Below are positions 27,046 through 37,584 of a DNA stretch of 45,533 bases, piece by piece. The translations under genes and the position numbers were made by a program. Location of the stretch: IMG/VR virus record IMGVR_UViG_3300042863_000526, positions 1 through 45,533 of that record. The stretch is one strand, 5' to 3'. Below the pieces are notes generated by a model. It searched no databases, had not been told where the DNA came from, and worked only from the letters and a program-made list of their open reading frames with translations. Numbering within the stretch: the first letter of the stretch is position 1; every line of letters starts with the position of its first letter. This stretch comes from a virus.

Positions 27046-27119
27046 GGAGGTATAACTTAACGGTAAAGTAGTAGGCTTTTAACCTATTAATCAGAGTTCG
27101 ATTCTCTGTGCCTCTACCA
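27046..27119 (+). tRNA. tRNA-Lys(UUU)
   Basis: Acceptor GGAGGTA/TGCCTCT, anticodon stem GTAGG/CCTAT with loop CTTTTAA, encoded CCA. Confidence 0.95.
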
Positions 27120-27199
27120 TATAAAAACACATTAGAAGCCTTCGTGACTGTAGGCAAGTAGGTCTCTGAGTCGTTTCCGACTAGTGTGTTTCTATATGG
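27117..27199 (+). ncRNA. Long-stem RNA starting at the CCA of tRNA-Lys
   Basis: CCATATA-A-AAACACATTAG (27117-27135) pairs with CTAGTGTGTTT-C-TATATGG (27181-27199), about 18 bp with one A-C mismatch. The interior has GCCT/AGGC and AGTCG-TTTC-CGACT. The first three bases are the CCA of tRNA-Lys(UUU), so folding and tRNA maturation are linked. The outer stem resembles that of family B copy 2 directly downstream, but the core differs. Confidence 0.6.
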
Positions 27200-27203
27200 T
27201 AGT

Positions 27204-27280
27204 TATATAAAAACATATTTGACTAAACTCGGGTTCATCCGTGATAGCAGTTGCTACTATATCAAGTATGTTTCTATATA
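27204..27280 (+). ncRNA. RNA family B copy 2
   Basis: TATATA-A-AAACATA-T-TTGA (27204-27222) pairs with TCAA-G-TATGTTT-C-TATATA (27262-27280). The 39-base core (27223-27261) matches the core of copy 1 (18383-18420) except for one substitution and one inserted base. TTGA/TCAA replaces TTAA/TTAA of copy 1. Same array, 8.8 kb apart. Confidence 0.65.
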
Positions 27281-27293
27281 GTAAAAAGAATTT

Positions 27294-27381
27294 GGGTGTT
27301 GCCCCCGTCGGCGGTCTGTAAAACCGTTACCTTAAGAGATGGGAAGTCGGGTTCGTGGAGCGTTACCATCAACACCCACCA
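27294..27381 (+). tRNA. Aberrant tRNA-Tyr(GUA)-like gene
   Basis: Acceptor GGGTGTT/AACACCC, discriminator A, encoded CCA and anticodon arm GCGGT-CTGTAAA-ACCGT are sound. Only 10 bases (27301-27310) lie where a D-arm of about 18 should be. The T-stem GATGG/CCATC holds a 23-base loop instead of the usual 7-base loop. It is the only Tyr candidate. It may be a tRNA with an insertion, a decoy, or a tRNA-like RNA. Confidence 0.6.
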
Positions 27382-27964: not shown

Positions 27965-28056
27965 GCCCCTGTAGTTTAACGGTAAAACGGCGGATTTATA
28001 TCCCGTAAGCAACAGATAATTGGTTCATCTGGGTTCGACTCCCGGCAGGGGTACCA
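27965..28056 (+). tRNA. tRNA-Ile(UAU)-like with long variable arm
   Basis: Acceptor GCCCCTG/CAGGGGT, D-stem GTTT/AAAC, T-arm CTGGG-TTCGACT-CCCGG and encoded CCA are good. The anticodon loop reads TTTATAT, giving UAU, but the last stem pair is A-C and the variable arm is 22 bases, unusual for Ile. A frame shift of the loop by one would give AUA (Tyr), which would fit the long arm. Identity uncertain. Confidence 0.7.
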
Positions 28057-34133: not shown

Positions 34134-35561
34134 ATGTCAACATTTGTAGAAGCAGTAGCTAACCAAGAAGCCCGTACCACTAACGGTATGAAGGCACGTA
34201 AGTCAACCGCAAATGCTTGCGTTGACTTGTTCTATAACATCGGTGCAAGCCGTGGTAAGAACATCATACCCGCATTCACTGCGGCTTATGTTGAAAACTC
34301 TGACCTAGCATTACGTATTGTCCAATGGGCACGTGATGCACGTGGTGGATCCGGCGAACGTGAATTGTTCCGTCAAGTACTAGTTCACTTGGAACTAACC
34401 AACCCAGAAGATGCCAGCCGTCTATTGGTTAAGGTTCCTGAATTAGGTCGTTACGATGACTTGCTAGTGTTTAAGACTAAGACTCTTAAGGCACAAGCAT
34501 ACTCTATGTTAGGTGATGCATTACGTAACCGTAATGGATTGGCTGCAAAGTGGACTCCACGTAAGGGCGATGTTGCACGTGAAATTCGTGAATTCTTTGG
34601 AATGACTCCAAAGCAATATCGTAAGAGCCTTGTTGCATTAACCAATGTTGTTGAAACACAAATGTGTTCTAACGATTGGGACAACATCAACTATAGTCAT
34701 GTTCCTTCAGTGGCACATGCACGTTACAAGAAGGCATTTGGTCGTCATGGTACAACCTATGCTGAATATGTAACTAAGTTAGTTAAGGGTGAAGCCGGTG
34801 TTAAAATTAACGCAGGTGCAGTATTCCCCTACGATGTATTGAAGGGTGCTATCAACAAGTACAGCCGTAGTTCTATGACTAAGACTGAATTGGATGCATT
34901 GCAAGCCCAATGGGATGCATTGCCAAACTTCATCGGGGACAGTAACGTGTTGCCAATGGTTGACAGTTCTGGTTCTATGACTTGTCTTGCCGGTGGTCAT
35001 GGTAGCAAGAGTACTTTGTCTTGTTTGGATGTTGCAATCTCATTGGGATTGTACTTTGCAGACAAGAACACTGGTAAGTTCAAGGACACGTTCCTAACTT
35101 TCAGTCGTACTCCAAAGCTGGTTACTCTACAGGGTAACATCAATCAAAAGATTGATCAAATGAACACTGGTGAAGTCGCTAACACCGACTTGAACAAGGC
35201 ATTTGATTTGGTGCTTAAGACAGCAGTTGATAACAATGTTCCTCAAGCAGAAATGCCAGGGACAATCGTTATCTTCTCTGACATGCAATTTGATGCCGGA
35301 GTATCTCACGATGACTCCGCTATTGAAATGATTGCACGTAAGTATCAAGCCGCAGGCTACGAACTTCCAAAGGTCGTATTCTGGAACTTGAACGCCGCAT
35401 ACGGTAACGCACCAGTTAAGTTTAACAAGAGTGGTGTTGCGCTAGTCTCAGGATTTAGCCCAGCAGTTGCACAAGGTATTCTTTCTGGTAACATGGATGA
35501 CTTCTCACCAGAAGCAATCATGTTGAAGACCGTTATGAAGGATCGCTACGACCTAGCTTAA
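34134..35561 (+). CDS. DUF2828-like protein with C-terminal vWA domain (Ro60/TROVE-like architecture)
   Basis: A 475-aa protein. The N-terminal two thirds are helical, with ARDARGGSGERELF near residues 66-79, a DUF2828/TROVE-type signature, and LGRYDDLL near 105. The last third is a von Willebrand A domain: MVDSSGSM near 275 is the MIDAS motif (DxSxS), then FSRTP, NTDLNKAFD and IVIFSDMQFD. Ro60 has the same order, a helical ring that binds misfolded RNA and Y RNA, then vWA. GGAAGGAG precedes the ATG. Codon use is richer in GTA/ACG-type codons than in the flanking genes. RNA binding here is inferred, supported by the RNAs on both sides. Confidence 0.8.
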   Translation: MSTFVEAVANQEARTTNGMKARKSTANACVDLFYNIGASRGKNIIPAFTAAYVENSDLALRIVQWARDARGGSGERELFRQVLVHLELTNPEDASRLLVKVPELGRYDDLLVFKTKTLKAQAYSMLGDALRNRNGLAAKWTPRKGDVAREIREFFGMTPKQYRKSLVALTNVVETQMCSNDWDNINYSHVPSVAHARYKKAFGRHGTTYAEYVTKLVKGEAGVKINAGAVFPYDVLKGAINKYSRSSMTKTELDALQAQWDALPNFIGDSNVLPMVDSSGSMTCLAGGHGSKSTLSCLDVAISLGLYFADKNTGKFKDTFLTFSRTPKLVTLQGNINQKIDQMNTGEVANTDLNKAFDLVLKTAVDNNVPQAEMPGTIVIFSDMQFDAGVSHDDSAIEMIARKYQAAGYELPKVVFWNLNAAYGNAPVKFNKSGVALVSGFSPAVAQGILSGNMDDFSPEAIMLKTVMKDRYDLA

Positions 35562-35593
35562 GCTAAATAGTAGTAGACAGACACCTAGTGTCT

Positions 35594-35674
35594 GTTTTTA
35601 TAAGTGTTCTATATCACACCCAGCCGATAAGACTGGCTCTGTAAGTGAAAAAGATATAGAATCTTTATAAAAAC
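35594..35674 (+). ncRNA. Long-stem RNA downstream of the Ro-like gene
   Basis: GTTTTTATAA (35594-35603) pairs with TTATAAAAAC (35665-35674) and TTCTATATC (35607-35615) with GATATAGAA (35653-35661), about 20 bp with a small internal loop. The 37-base loop carries CCAGCC and GACTGGCTC. It begins 32 bases after the Ro-like stop. No T-run, so not a plain terminator. A candidate ligand of the Ro-like protein. Confidence 0.6.
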
Positions 35675-35761
35675 ACCCTAGCAAAACACCGCATATTATT
35701 GAGTTTACACACTCCTCGTTCTTTATTTAATATTAATACTTTTTAGCGCATCTAGGGTGTT
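35672..35761 (+). ncRNA. Second stem-closed RNA downstream of the Ro-like gene
   Basis: AACACCCTAG (35672-35681) pairs perfectly with CTAGGGTGTT (35752-35761). The first three bases are shared with the preceding stem, so the two cannot both be complete. AGCGCA near 35745 can also pair with TGCGCT near 35765. No gene in the interior. Confidence 0.5.
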
Positions 35762-35770
35762 CTTTTGCGC

Positions 35771-35799
35771 TTGACAATAATTCCCAAATAGTTTATAAT
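35771..35799 (+). promoter_or_regulatory. Sigma-70-type promoter TTGACA-17-TATAAT
   Basis: Perfect boxes; drives the small gene at 35822 and probably the phosphatase-kinase group after it. Confidence 0.85.
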
Positions 35800-35821
35800 A
35801 CTTCTATTAAAAGGAGTCATT

Positions 35822-36019
35822 ATGAGTGTGTACGCAAAATTTCAAGACAAAATCGTTGAAGTCGTCCGCGTCACCGAGACCGTTGGCTTCAGTAAAGATA
35901 AAGGTTGGGTATGCATTACTACTGATGTAGGTGTACCTGAGCGTAAGAAGATGACCTTCAAGTGGGTGCCTGCAAGTACTCAGTTTGAATGGGTCAGAGA
36001 ATTTAATTTCGGAGAATAA
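35822..36019 (+). CDS. Small hypothetical protein of 65 aa
   Basis: Begins MSVYAKFQDKIVEVVRVTET; beta-rich, acidic and basic residues alternate, no membrane segment, no family recognised. AAAGGAG six bases before the ATG is a strong ribosome-binding site. First gene after a perfect promoter, followed two bases later by the phosphatase gene. Confidence 0.75.
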   Translation: MSVYAKFQDKIVEVVRVTETVGFSKDKGWVCITTDVGVPERKKMTFKWVPASTQFEWVREFNFGE

Positions 36020-36020
36020 T

Positions 36021-36515
36021 ATGCCGTGGATTCAAAATGTAGCACTTAGCGATATCATAAAAGGAAGACACTACGATCCAGGCCCCAACAACCTGTTGAT
36101 TCAAATTGTTGACACTGGCATGGAGTTCCCCGAACCAAAATTCAAGTTCAATAATGTTCATCAATTTCAGTTCTTGGACTTGGAAGAAAAAGATACATGC
36201 ATTGAACCAGAAATGAAAATCAACGATGACCAAGCAAAGAGTTTGGTTGTACTACTAAAGCAAGCATTGCTTAATCGCAGTAATGTGATTGTGCATTGTG
36301 TTGCTGGTGTATGTCGTAGTGGTGCAGTAGTAGAGGTTGGTATAATGATGGGCTTTGATGATACCGAAGATTATCGTAGTCCTAACTTGTTGGTCAAACA
36401 CAAAATGATGAGTGTGTTAGGATTGACGTATGATGAAAATGAAGCCCACACAATCAATGGGATAGTTTTAGATAGTGGGTTAATTGTACCCAAAAACTAT
36501 AAAGGTGATATTTAA
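36021..36515 (+). CDS. Dual-specificity/tyrosine-phosphatase-like protein (CX5R)
   Basis: From the ATG at 36021 the protein has 164 aa. VHCVAGVCRSGAV near residue 92 is the phosphatase loop HC-X5-R-S/T-G with catalytic Cys and Arg. It matches cysteine phosphatases that act on tyrosine, serine, RNA 5' ends or phosphoinositides. An upstream ATG at 35985 lies inside the previous gene and is rejected. The stop overlaps the next start by one base, coupling it to the kinase gene. Confidence 0.8.
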   Translation: MPWIQNVALSDIIKGRHYDPGPNNLLIQIVDTGMEFPEPKFKFNNVHQFQFLDLEEKDTCIEPEMKINDDQAKSLVVLLKQALLNRSNVIVHCVAGVCRSGAVVEVGIMMGFDDTEDYRSPNLLVKHKMMSVLGLTYDENEAHTINGIVLDSGLIVPKNYKGDI

Positions 36516-36982
36516 TGAACAAGTGTTATCAATTAGTTGGTGTACCGTGTGCAGGTAAAAGTACTTGGATCAAGAATCAAATCTGGGCTTTGGGCTTGAC
36601 TGTTGTTGGCACTGATATGTATGTTGAAATGGAAGCACATCGTCAAGGTAAAACATACACCGAGGTGTTTGAAGATTACATGCCTATCGCAGTTCGTTTG
36701 ATGGCTAATCATGCGTTGACTTGTCAAGCTAACCGTTTAGATTTTATCTGGGACCAAACTAGCACTACTGTAAAAAGCCGTGCTAGAAAGTTCAACACAT
36801 TGTTGCCATCACAATATGAACATATTGCGGTTGTTTTCAAAGTGCCCGAAATGGATGAATTGAAAAGTAGATTAGCTAATCGCCCGGGCAAAGAAGTTCC
36901 TTGGGAAGTAGTACAAGGTATGATTGATAATTGGGAAGAGCCTACCCTTGGAGAAGGCTTTAAAGAAATTTGGAGAGTATAA
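36515..36982 (+). CDS. P-loop kinase, polynucleotide-kinase-like
   Basis: A 155-aa protein with Walker A GVPCAGKST at residues 9-17, a central FIWDQTST motif and RPGKEVPW near the C-terminus, which fits the lid arginine. This arrangement resembles the kinase part of T4-type and bacterial polynucleotide kinases, which phosphorylate 5'-OH RNA or DNA ends. The metallophosphoesterase gene follows with a one-base overlap (TAATG). Small-molecule kinases share the same motifs, so the substrate is inferred. Confidence 0.7.
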   Translation: MNKCYQLVGVPCAGKSTWIKNQIWALGLTVVGTDMYVEMEAHRQGKTYTEVFEDYMPIAVRLMANHALTCQANRLDFIWDQTSTTVKSRARKFNTLLPSQYEHIAVVFKVPEMDELKSRLANRPGKEVPWEVVQGMIDNWEEPTLGEGFKEIWRV

Positions 36983-37584
36983 TGCCAGCAGTGTTTTTAG
37001 TGTCGGACACTCACTTCGGTCATACCGGTGTATGCCGATTCACAGAATCAGACGGAGTGACAAAGATACGCCCATGGACTGATCCAGCTGAAATGGATGA
37101 GGAAATGGTCAAGCGTTGGAACGAAACGGTTCGTCCAAATGATAAGGTATATCACTTGGGTGATGTAGTTATCAACCGCAAGGCTTTGAGCATCATGCAT
37201 CGTTTGAACGGTGACAAGGTCTTGATTCGTGGTAACCATGATATTTTCCGTGACACGGAATATCGTGAACACTTCCGTGAATTGAGGGCTTATCATGTTA
37301 TGAACGGTATGATATTAAGTCACATCCCAGTACATGAAGAAAGTTTGGGTCGTTTTGGTGTCAACATTCATGGTCATTTGCACACTAACCGTGTTAAAAA
37401 GCCTTGTGGATATGATGTTAAAACTGGTACTATCTTGTACAGCGATGAAATTGATACAAGATATCATTGCGTATGTGTAGAACAAACAGACTTTAGACCT
37501 ATCTTATTAGAAGATGTATACAAGCGAATCAAAGACGAGGGCGGCGAAGTAGGATTTAAATCTGGCAACGGACCTACTATGTAG
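36982..37584 (+). CDS. Calcineurin-like metallophosphoesterase
   Basis: From the ATG at 36982 the protein has 200 aa. The full motif set is present: SDTHFGH near the N-terminus, LGDVVINR, IRGNHD, LSHIPVH and NIHGHLH. Such enzymes split phosphomonoesters or diesters using two metal ions. Directly after a polynucleotide-kinase-like gene it recalls bacterial Pnkp, which joins kinase and metallophosphoesterase domains in one protein for RNA repair; here they are separate genes. A strong terminator follows. Confidence 0.85.
   Translation: MPAVFLVSDTHFGHTGVCRFTESDGVTKIRPWTDPAEMDEEMVKRWNETVRPNDKVYHLGDVVINRKALSIMHRLNGDKVLIRGNHDIFRDTEYREHFRELRAYHVMNGMILSHIPVHEESLGRFGVNIHGHLHTNRVKKPCGYDVKTGTILYSDEIDTRYHCVCVEQTDFRPILLEDVYKRIKDEGGEVGFKSGNGPTM

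Follow-up and report, generated by a model that had tools for sequence, protein, structure and literature searches.

A putative viral tRNA-Tyr gene without a D-arm, with a pseudoknot and relocated elbow bases

In a viral IMG/VR fragment of 45,533 bases, analysed over its whole length and called the window below, an 88-nt element on the + strand (27294-27381) very likely constitutes a functional tRNA-Tyr gene of new architecture within a viral tRNA array. ARAGORN called 34 tRNAs in the 45.5-kb window, covering all amino acids but Tyr, and the element completes the window's 20-amino-acid set. The only other Tyr candidate, a doubtful one at 27965-28056, carries the anticodon TAT and is therefore not a second tRNA-Tyr. 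The Rfam tRNA model (RF00005) gave no match at 27294-27381, at the gathering score or with E up to 10. Two features of the canonical cloverleaf are absent, the D-arm and the combination of G18-G19 with a T-Psi-C loop of the form TTCRANY; the element has instead the T-loop AGCGTTA and a relocated AAG, and nonetheless retains the match between positions 19 and 56. A covariance model of the family, of which the window sequence is itself part, scored 79.4 bits here (E 7e-22). The parts of the element are as follows, with the basis of each assignment in parentheses.

27294-27381, +, whole putative non-canonical tRNA-Tyr gene with encoded CCA (homologue comparison and covariance-model score)
27294-27301, +, acceptor 5' strand, 8 nt, GGGTGTTG (position 8 pairs with 65)
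27302-27303, +, linker CC, unpaired (alignment position)
27304-27309, +, P2 5' strand CCCGTC, the D-region strand, positions 11-16, whose partner is the variable-arm loop (covariation)
27311-27327, +, anticodon arm GCGGT-CTGTAAA-ACCGT, anticodon GTA at 27318-27320 (covarying 5-bp stem)
27329-27331, +, P3 5' strand ACC, variable-arm stem (pairing compared with shuffles)
27338-27343, +, P2 3' strand GATGGG, within the variable-arm loop (covariation)
27344-27346, +, AAG, relocated elbow bases 17-18-19 with A18 and G19 (covariation with T-loop 55-56)
27350-27352, +, P3 3' strand GGT (pairing compared with shuffles; 34-row alignment)
27355-27369, +, T-arm GTGG-AGCGTTA-CCAT, 4 bp, loop A54 G55 C56 G57 U58 U59 A60 (homologue comparison)
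27370-27377, +, acceptor 3' strand CAACACCC, positions 65-72 (homologue comparison)
27378-27381, +, discriminator A73 and encoded CCA (A73 in 81/81 relatives)

Relatives were collected by sequence scans. An exact 34-nt scan of IMG/VR recovered the element in two more contigs, both of other metagenomes; in one of these the surrounding sequence has clearly diverged. A relaxed scan keyed on the anticodon loop and GAGCGTTACC returned many more matches. In 84,980 genomes of bacteria and archaea, a scan yielded 27 stretches, mostly from Verrucomicrobia metagenome-assembled genomes (MAGs). When an acceptor stem and CCA were required, 81 distinct sequences of one layout remained, which we call type A; these at least 81 sequences come from viral contigs and from tRNA arrays of Verrucomicrobia MAGs. 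Because CTGTAAA, GGAGCGTTACC and CCA served as search keys, their conservation is no evidence. The anticodon loop starts at an identical offset in 81/81 sequences, and the gap between acceptor and anticodon stem is 10 nt in all 81, with no D-arm, which confirms the 10 bases first read in its place in the window. A strict fold scan produced 65 matches on real sequence (64 with GTA, 1 with TCT); reversed sequence gave 0. Few Verrucomicrobia carry type A (4 of 289 genomes above threshold, counting the centre genome and one weak match), and searches of isolated phages and plasmids at BLAST sensitivity returned no homologues.

The acceptor branch departs from the usual 7/5 arrangement. As initially described, the acceptor strands GGGTGTT/AACACCC, the discriminator A, the CCA and the anticodon arm are all present; the acceptor stem is indeed intact, with an eighth pair, G8-C65, to be added. 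Among the 81 type A sequences pair 8-65 is G-C in 79, T-A in 1 and A-C in 1. The conserved T-arm is a 4-bp stem closing the 7-nt loop AGCGTTA, and not the 23-base T-loop first proposed. The T-stem GATGG/CCATC assumed for that larger loop is fully paired in just 9/81 homologues, and its GATGG belongs to the 3' strand of P2. Comparison of the sequences thus shows acceptor and T-stem forming a predicted 8/4 helix.

Where a D-stem would lie, the D-region strand and the variable-arm loop form a predicted helix, P2. P2 occurs in 42 distinct strand combinations among the 81 sequences, with 96% standard pairs; when the 3' strands were redealt, pairing fell to 67.2 +/- 2.2%, with a maximum of 77.4% in 5000 trials. 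At position 13 alone, GC is found 15 times, CG 11, TA 9 and AT 5. This covariation lies far above both shuffled and slid controls, and the 81 sequences were gathered without any P2 criterion. The short helix P3 (27329-27331/27350-27352) crosses P2, which makes the arrangement a pseudoknot; at least 3 bp are reachable in 46/46 combinations, compared with 56% in shuffles. Covariation therefore shows a predicted pseudoknot standing in for the D-stem.

We also evaluated a 34-row alignment, extended by family members whose T-loops differ. Its rows come from a scan demanding at least 5/6 P2 pairs, so P2 itself is best judged on the 81 sequences. Because a MAFFT alignment had slipped by one in the variable arm, pair counts were taken from segments and from an N-padded fixed-length alignment. 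Overall 96.7% of cells pair, compared with 70.1% after shuffling; the covariation score is 0.737, against 0.194 shuffled and at most 0.135 slid, and both partners vary in 25 of 27 pairs. The 8-bp acceptor helix is 100% paired and every one of its pairs changes on both sides, whereas P3 is the weakest helix (82% paired). RNAfold on its own predicts the 8-bp acceptor and P2, though the total energy of the window element is unremarkable and its thermodynamic z-score, taken singly, is weak (-0.75). Two other readings of the sequence were discarded: a 4-bp CCCG/CGGG contact from the D-region to the enlarged T-loop was dropped, as homologues show P2, and the acceptor 3' strand, already in place at 27371, led us to reject a tRNA intron.

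The bases that follow the P2 3' strand were compared with the elbow of ordinary tRNAs. We parsed 2,913 ARAGORN tRNAs from the fetched loci, mostly viral. Where position 55 is U, the D-loop has GG in 2375/2395 tRNAs with U54/A58 and in 118/119 with A54/U58; where it is G, the D-loop has AG in 119/153 and 67/72. Position 56 follows position 19 (TTT with GA, TTA with GT, TTG with GC) in nearly all of the cases listed. Contacts 18-55, 19-56 and 54-58 thus vary and covary in the surveyed tRNAs. Loci chosen for AAAAG inflate the AGC class in this survey; among D-armed AGCGTTA tRNAs from loci not picked for AAAAG, GG is present in the parsed D-loop in only 6/44.

The same code was found in type A. 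In a scan of the loci for the type A fold that left the T-loop and the post-P2 motif unconstrained, T-loop positions 55-56 matched motif positions 18-19 in 82/82 family members (GC/AG in 76, TC/GG in 3, TA/GT in 2 and TT/GA in 1), and the motif follows the same code as the D-armed tRNAs from the same loci. In the 34-row alignment only the position-19 column pairs with position 56 in every row. As the post-P2 trinucleotide obeys the elbow code, it corresponds to a relocated 17-18-19. Covariation with T-loop 55-56 thus shows the bases after the P2 3' strand, AAG in the window, as predicted replacements for D-loop bases 17-19. The split between G55 and U55 may be one event; the three U55 classes add independent changes.

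Covariation at contacts 18-55, 19-56 and 54-58 spans many tRNA species across loci L001-L411, where ATCGTTA loops occur in Asp and His tRNAs, TTTGANT in Arg-ACG and AGCGTTA in Ile-GAT. About 20 D-armed Tyr tRNAs (type B) carry the T-loop AGCGTTA (L086, L108, L127, L240 and others), and Met-type tRNAs in L086, L108, L127, L240 and others have D-arms with loops shrunk to AAG or AAGT. A Verrucomicrobia array (L514, 2740-2827) contains a second type A-like tRNA with the anticodon loop TTCTAAG (CTA, amber), the T-loop TGCAACT and the motif TAG, which also obeys the elbow code. A 191-kb viral contig (L099) carries a type A fold with the anticodon TCT, the canonical T-loop TTCGATT and the motif TGG; the fold is therefore not restricted to Tyr.

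Identity elements and genomic distribution were compared with those of canonical tRNA-Tyr. A73 is present in 81/81 type A sequences and G1-C72 in 73/81, neither having been a search key; GUA and CCA, both search keys, are present in the window element. A convincing canonical tRNA-Tyr accompanies type A in only 1 of 32 viral records, some of which may be fragments. Among tRNA-rich relatives traced by means of the DUF2828 protein encoded downstream, a canonical tRNA-Tyr is found at 15 loci and type A at 2; no locus has both, and 7 have neither. In several relatives the canonical gene lies directly before the same conserved downstream RNA as type A does in the window, and since the two occupy the same place they presumably do the same job. 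The bacterial MAGs with type A, mostly Verrucomicrobia, contain a canonical tRNA-Tyr too in 15/16 cases, nearly always on another contig, so that in these genomes the array appears to be accessory.

We take type A to be, most probably, a working tRNA-Tyr, and infer its charging, processing and decoding from these comparisons. With its 8/4 helix, pseudoknot and relocated elbow bases, the molecule would fold into an L. It would be charged by a bacterial-type TyrRS through G1-C72, A73, GUA and the long variable region, would decode UAU and UAC during infection, and would stand in for the canonical tRNA-Tyr found at this locus in related phages. Its T-loop is predicted to be free of m5U54 and Psi55.

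The surroundings contain further structured RNAs. Directly after the tRNA-Tyr, 27383 to about 27605 holds a conserved structured noncoding RNA of about 220 nt with complementary ends (TTTTGTAAG..CTTACAAA) and an internal T-arm-like GGGTTCGA motif; it occurs in about 17 contigs beside tRNA arrays and has no Rfam match. Upstream, 27114-27202 and 27204-27280 have long AU-rich closing stems of 19-22 nt that are about 90% complementary, and in L002 the insert within the first of these stems is quite different and contains a T-arm-like GTGGGTTCGAATCCC. These two elements are possible Y-RNA-like RNAs for the DUF2828 protein. Genes for a DUF2828/DUF7788 protein (34134-35561; PHROG 850, 'RNA-binding protein'), a DSP-type phosphatase, a kinase-like ATPase and a calcineurin-like phosphoesterase stand in a row at 34134-37584, possibly an RNA-repair set. 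A PDB sequence search with the DUF2828 protein gave no match, so its kinship to Ro60 rests on domain names and the PHROG annotation. TROVE and RlaP genes follow one bacterial array (L514) and RtcB lies by another (L515); the surroundings of type A arrays fit an RNA-damage theme. The tRNA at 27965-28056, with a UAU anticodon, a long variable arm and an A31-C39 mismatch, recalls allo-tRNA-UAU; L514 (2100-2189) and L356 contain long UAU tRNAs like it.

The sequence-only reading had offered a working unusual tRNA, a decoy for a tRNA-cleaving enzyme and a Y-RNA-type mimic. Taken together, the covarying fold, the Tyr identity bases, the near-exclusion of canonical tRNA-Tyr and its replacement at the same locus argue well for the working tRNA. 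A decoy would be tRNA-like and charged or bound, but would serve to soak up some host factor, such as a nuclease that targets tRNAs, and not to translate. The RNA-repair genes near such arrays, and in the window the DUF2828/DUF7788 protein and the kinase and phosphoesterase reading frames downstream, suit this idea; however, type A excludes canonical tRNA-Tyr rather than accompanying it, a decoy need not replace the only tRNA-Tyr, and A73-CCA and G1-C72 are kept. We consider a decoy improbable and less economical than a working tRNA. Binding as a Y-RNA-type mimic by the Ro60-like protein whose gene lies 7 kb downstream is more improbable still: although that protein is annotated as RNA-binding, the element lacks a long Ro-binding stem and any Rfam Y-RNA or YrlA match, it has a complete acceptor with A73-CCA and a GUA anticodon arm, and the AU-rich stem elements just upstream are better candidates. 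We know of no YrlA or Y RNA with a complete aminoacylatable acceptor and anticodon arm.

A decaying tRNA-Tyr pseudogene or an assembly artefact might go unrecognised by ARAGORN and Rfam, as the element does, but every stem shows compensatory changes among the 81 distinct sequences, which come from many metagenomes; this refutes the explanation, to which we assign next to no probability. A normal tRNA-Tyr at this locus in related phages had been proposed as the sign of a local assembly error. Related phages do carry one; the odd form is nevertheless a conserved alternative and no such error, since the element recurs in contigs of other metagenomes and more than 80 distinct homologues keep the fold. 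At the level of comparative sequence evidence, the covarying base changes in dozens of viral and bacterial relatives show a real, selected tRNA design.

Type A shares with canonical bacterial class II tRNA-Tyr the CTGTAAA loop with GUA, A73, G1-C72, a long variable region and encoded CCA, and with the canonical tRNA-Tyr of related phages the locus and gene order. It differs from class II tRNA-Tyr in the missing D-arm, 8/4 instead of 7/5 stems, the pseudoknot, the T-loop AGCGTTA and the relocated elbow bases. The 8/4 allo-tRNAs, the D-armless mitochondrial tRNAs and tRNA-Pyl, which has no GG, are treated in a 2020 review of non-canonical tRNAs, and its passages on these describe neither a pseudoknot between D-strand and variable loop nor relocated elbow bases (PMC7609411). 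Allo-tRNAs (8/4 and 9/3; Mukai 2017, via PMC7609411) likewise split a 12-bp acceptor branch 8/4 and occur in bacteria and metagenomes; by the review's description they are set apart as Ser-like with a D-arm, whereas type A has GUA and A73 and no D-arm. The element accordingly shares their 8/4 acceptor/T-stem and neither their D-arm nor their serine-type identity. Irregular tRNA polycistrons from soil, cited there from Mukai 2017 as not charged by E. coli synthetases (PMC7609411), may include type A relatives. In the same account type III mt-tRNA-Ser is also D-armless, with a connector that contacts the variable region and T-loop, but it is mitochondrial, short and not a tyrosine tRNA, and no covarying 6-bp pseudoknot is described for it. 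The tRNA-Pyl, as presented there, likewise lacks G18G19 and the T-Psi-C sequence and has an unusual D/T-loop contact, but possesses a D-arm and a different synthetase and anticodon (PMC7609411). YrlA and other bacterial Y RNAs with Rsr are similar in being tRNA-like RNAs near Ro60-family genes (PMC7790460). Our literature search, with preprints and most subscription journals outside it, found no description of a D-armless pseudoknotted tRNA-Tyr, and within that scope the architecture of type A appears new.

The tRNAs of phages are believed to make good the loss of those that host defence cleaves, and published examples evade nucleases through changes in the anticodon loop (PMC10264068, PMC7824862). 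Some nucleases touch the T-arm, Cas12a3 for example (PMC12851939). That the elbow was rewired to escape host factors reading it is plausible but a guess, and drift in a genome carrying its own tRNA set is an alternative explanation. With low confidence, we suggest that the rewired elbow might shield the phage tRNA from host factors that read a normal D-loop/T-loop elbow. More broadly and tentatively, viral tRNAs could form a set with recodable elbows, in which the contacts 18-55, 19-56 and 54-58 change together in matched sets and type A is also rebuilt topologically, its variable arm supplying the D-loop bases; phage tRNAs might thereby become invisible to host nucleases and to modification enzymes (TrmA, TruB) that read the normal elbow. 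We hold this possibility to be somewhat less probable than its opposite.

Annotation tools miss type A genes, so that counts of phage tRNAs are biased, above all for Tyr. To our knowledge, the D-arm, G18-Psi55 and G19-C56 have been regarded as near-universal features of non-mitochondrial tRNA. The type A family, large and natural, appears to do without a D-arm in its elbow, and the elbow contacts of viral tRNAs show natural covariation. Type A would allow enzymes that need the sequence of the elbow to be told from those that need only its shape, and would let one test whether phages alter the elbow against tRNA-targeting defence.
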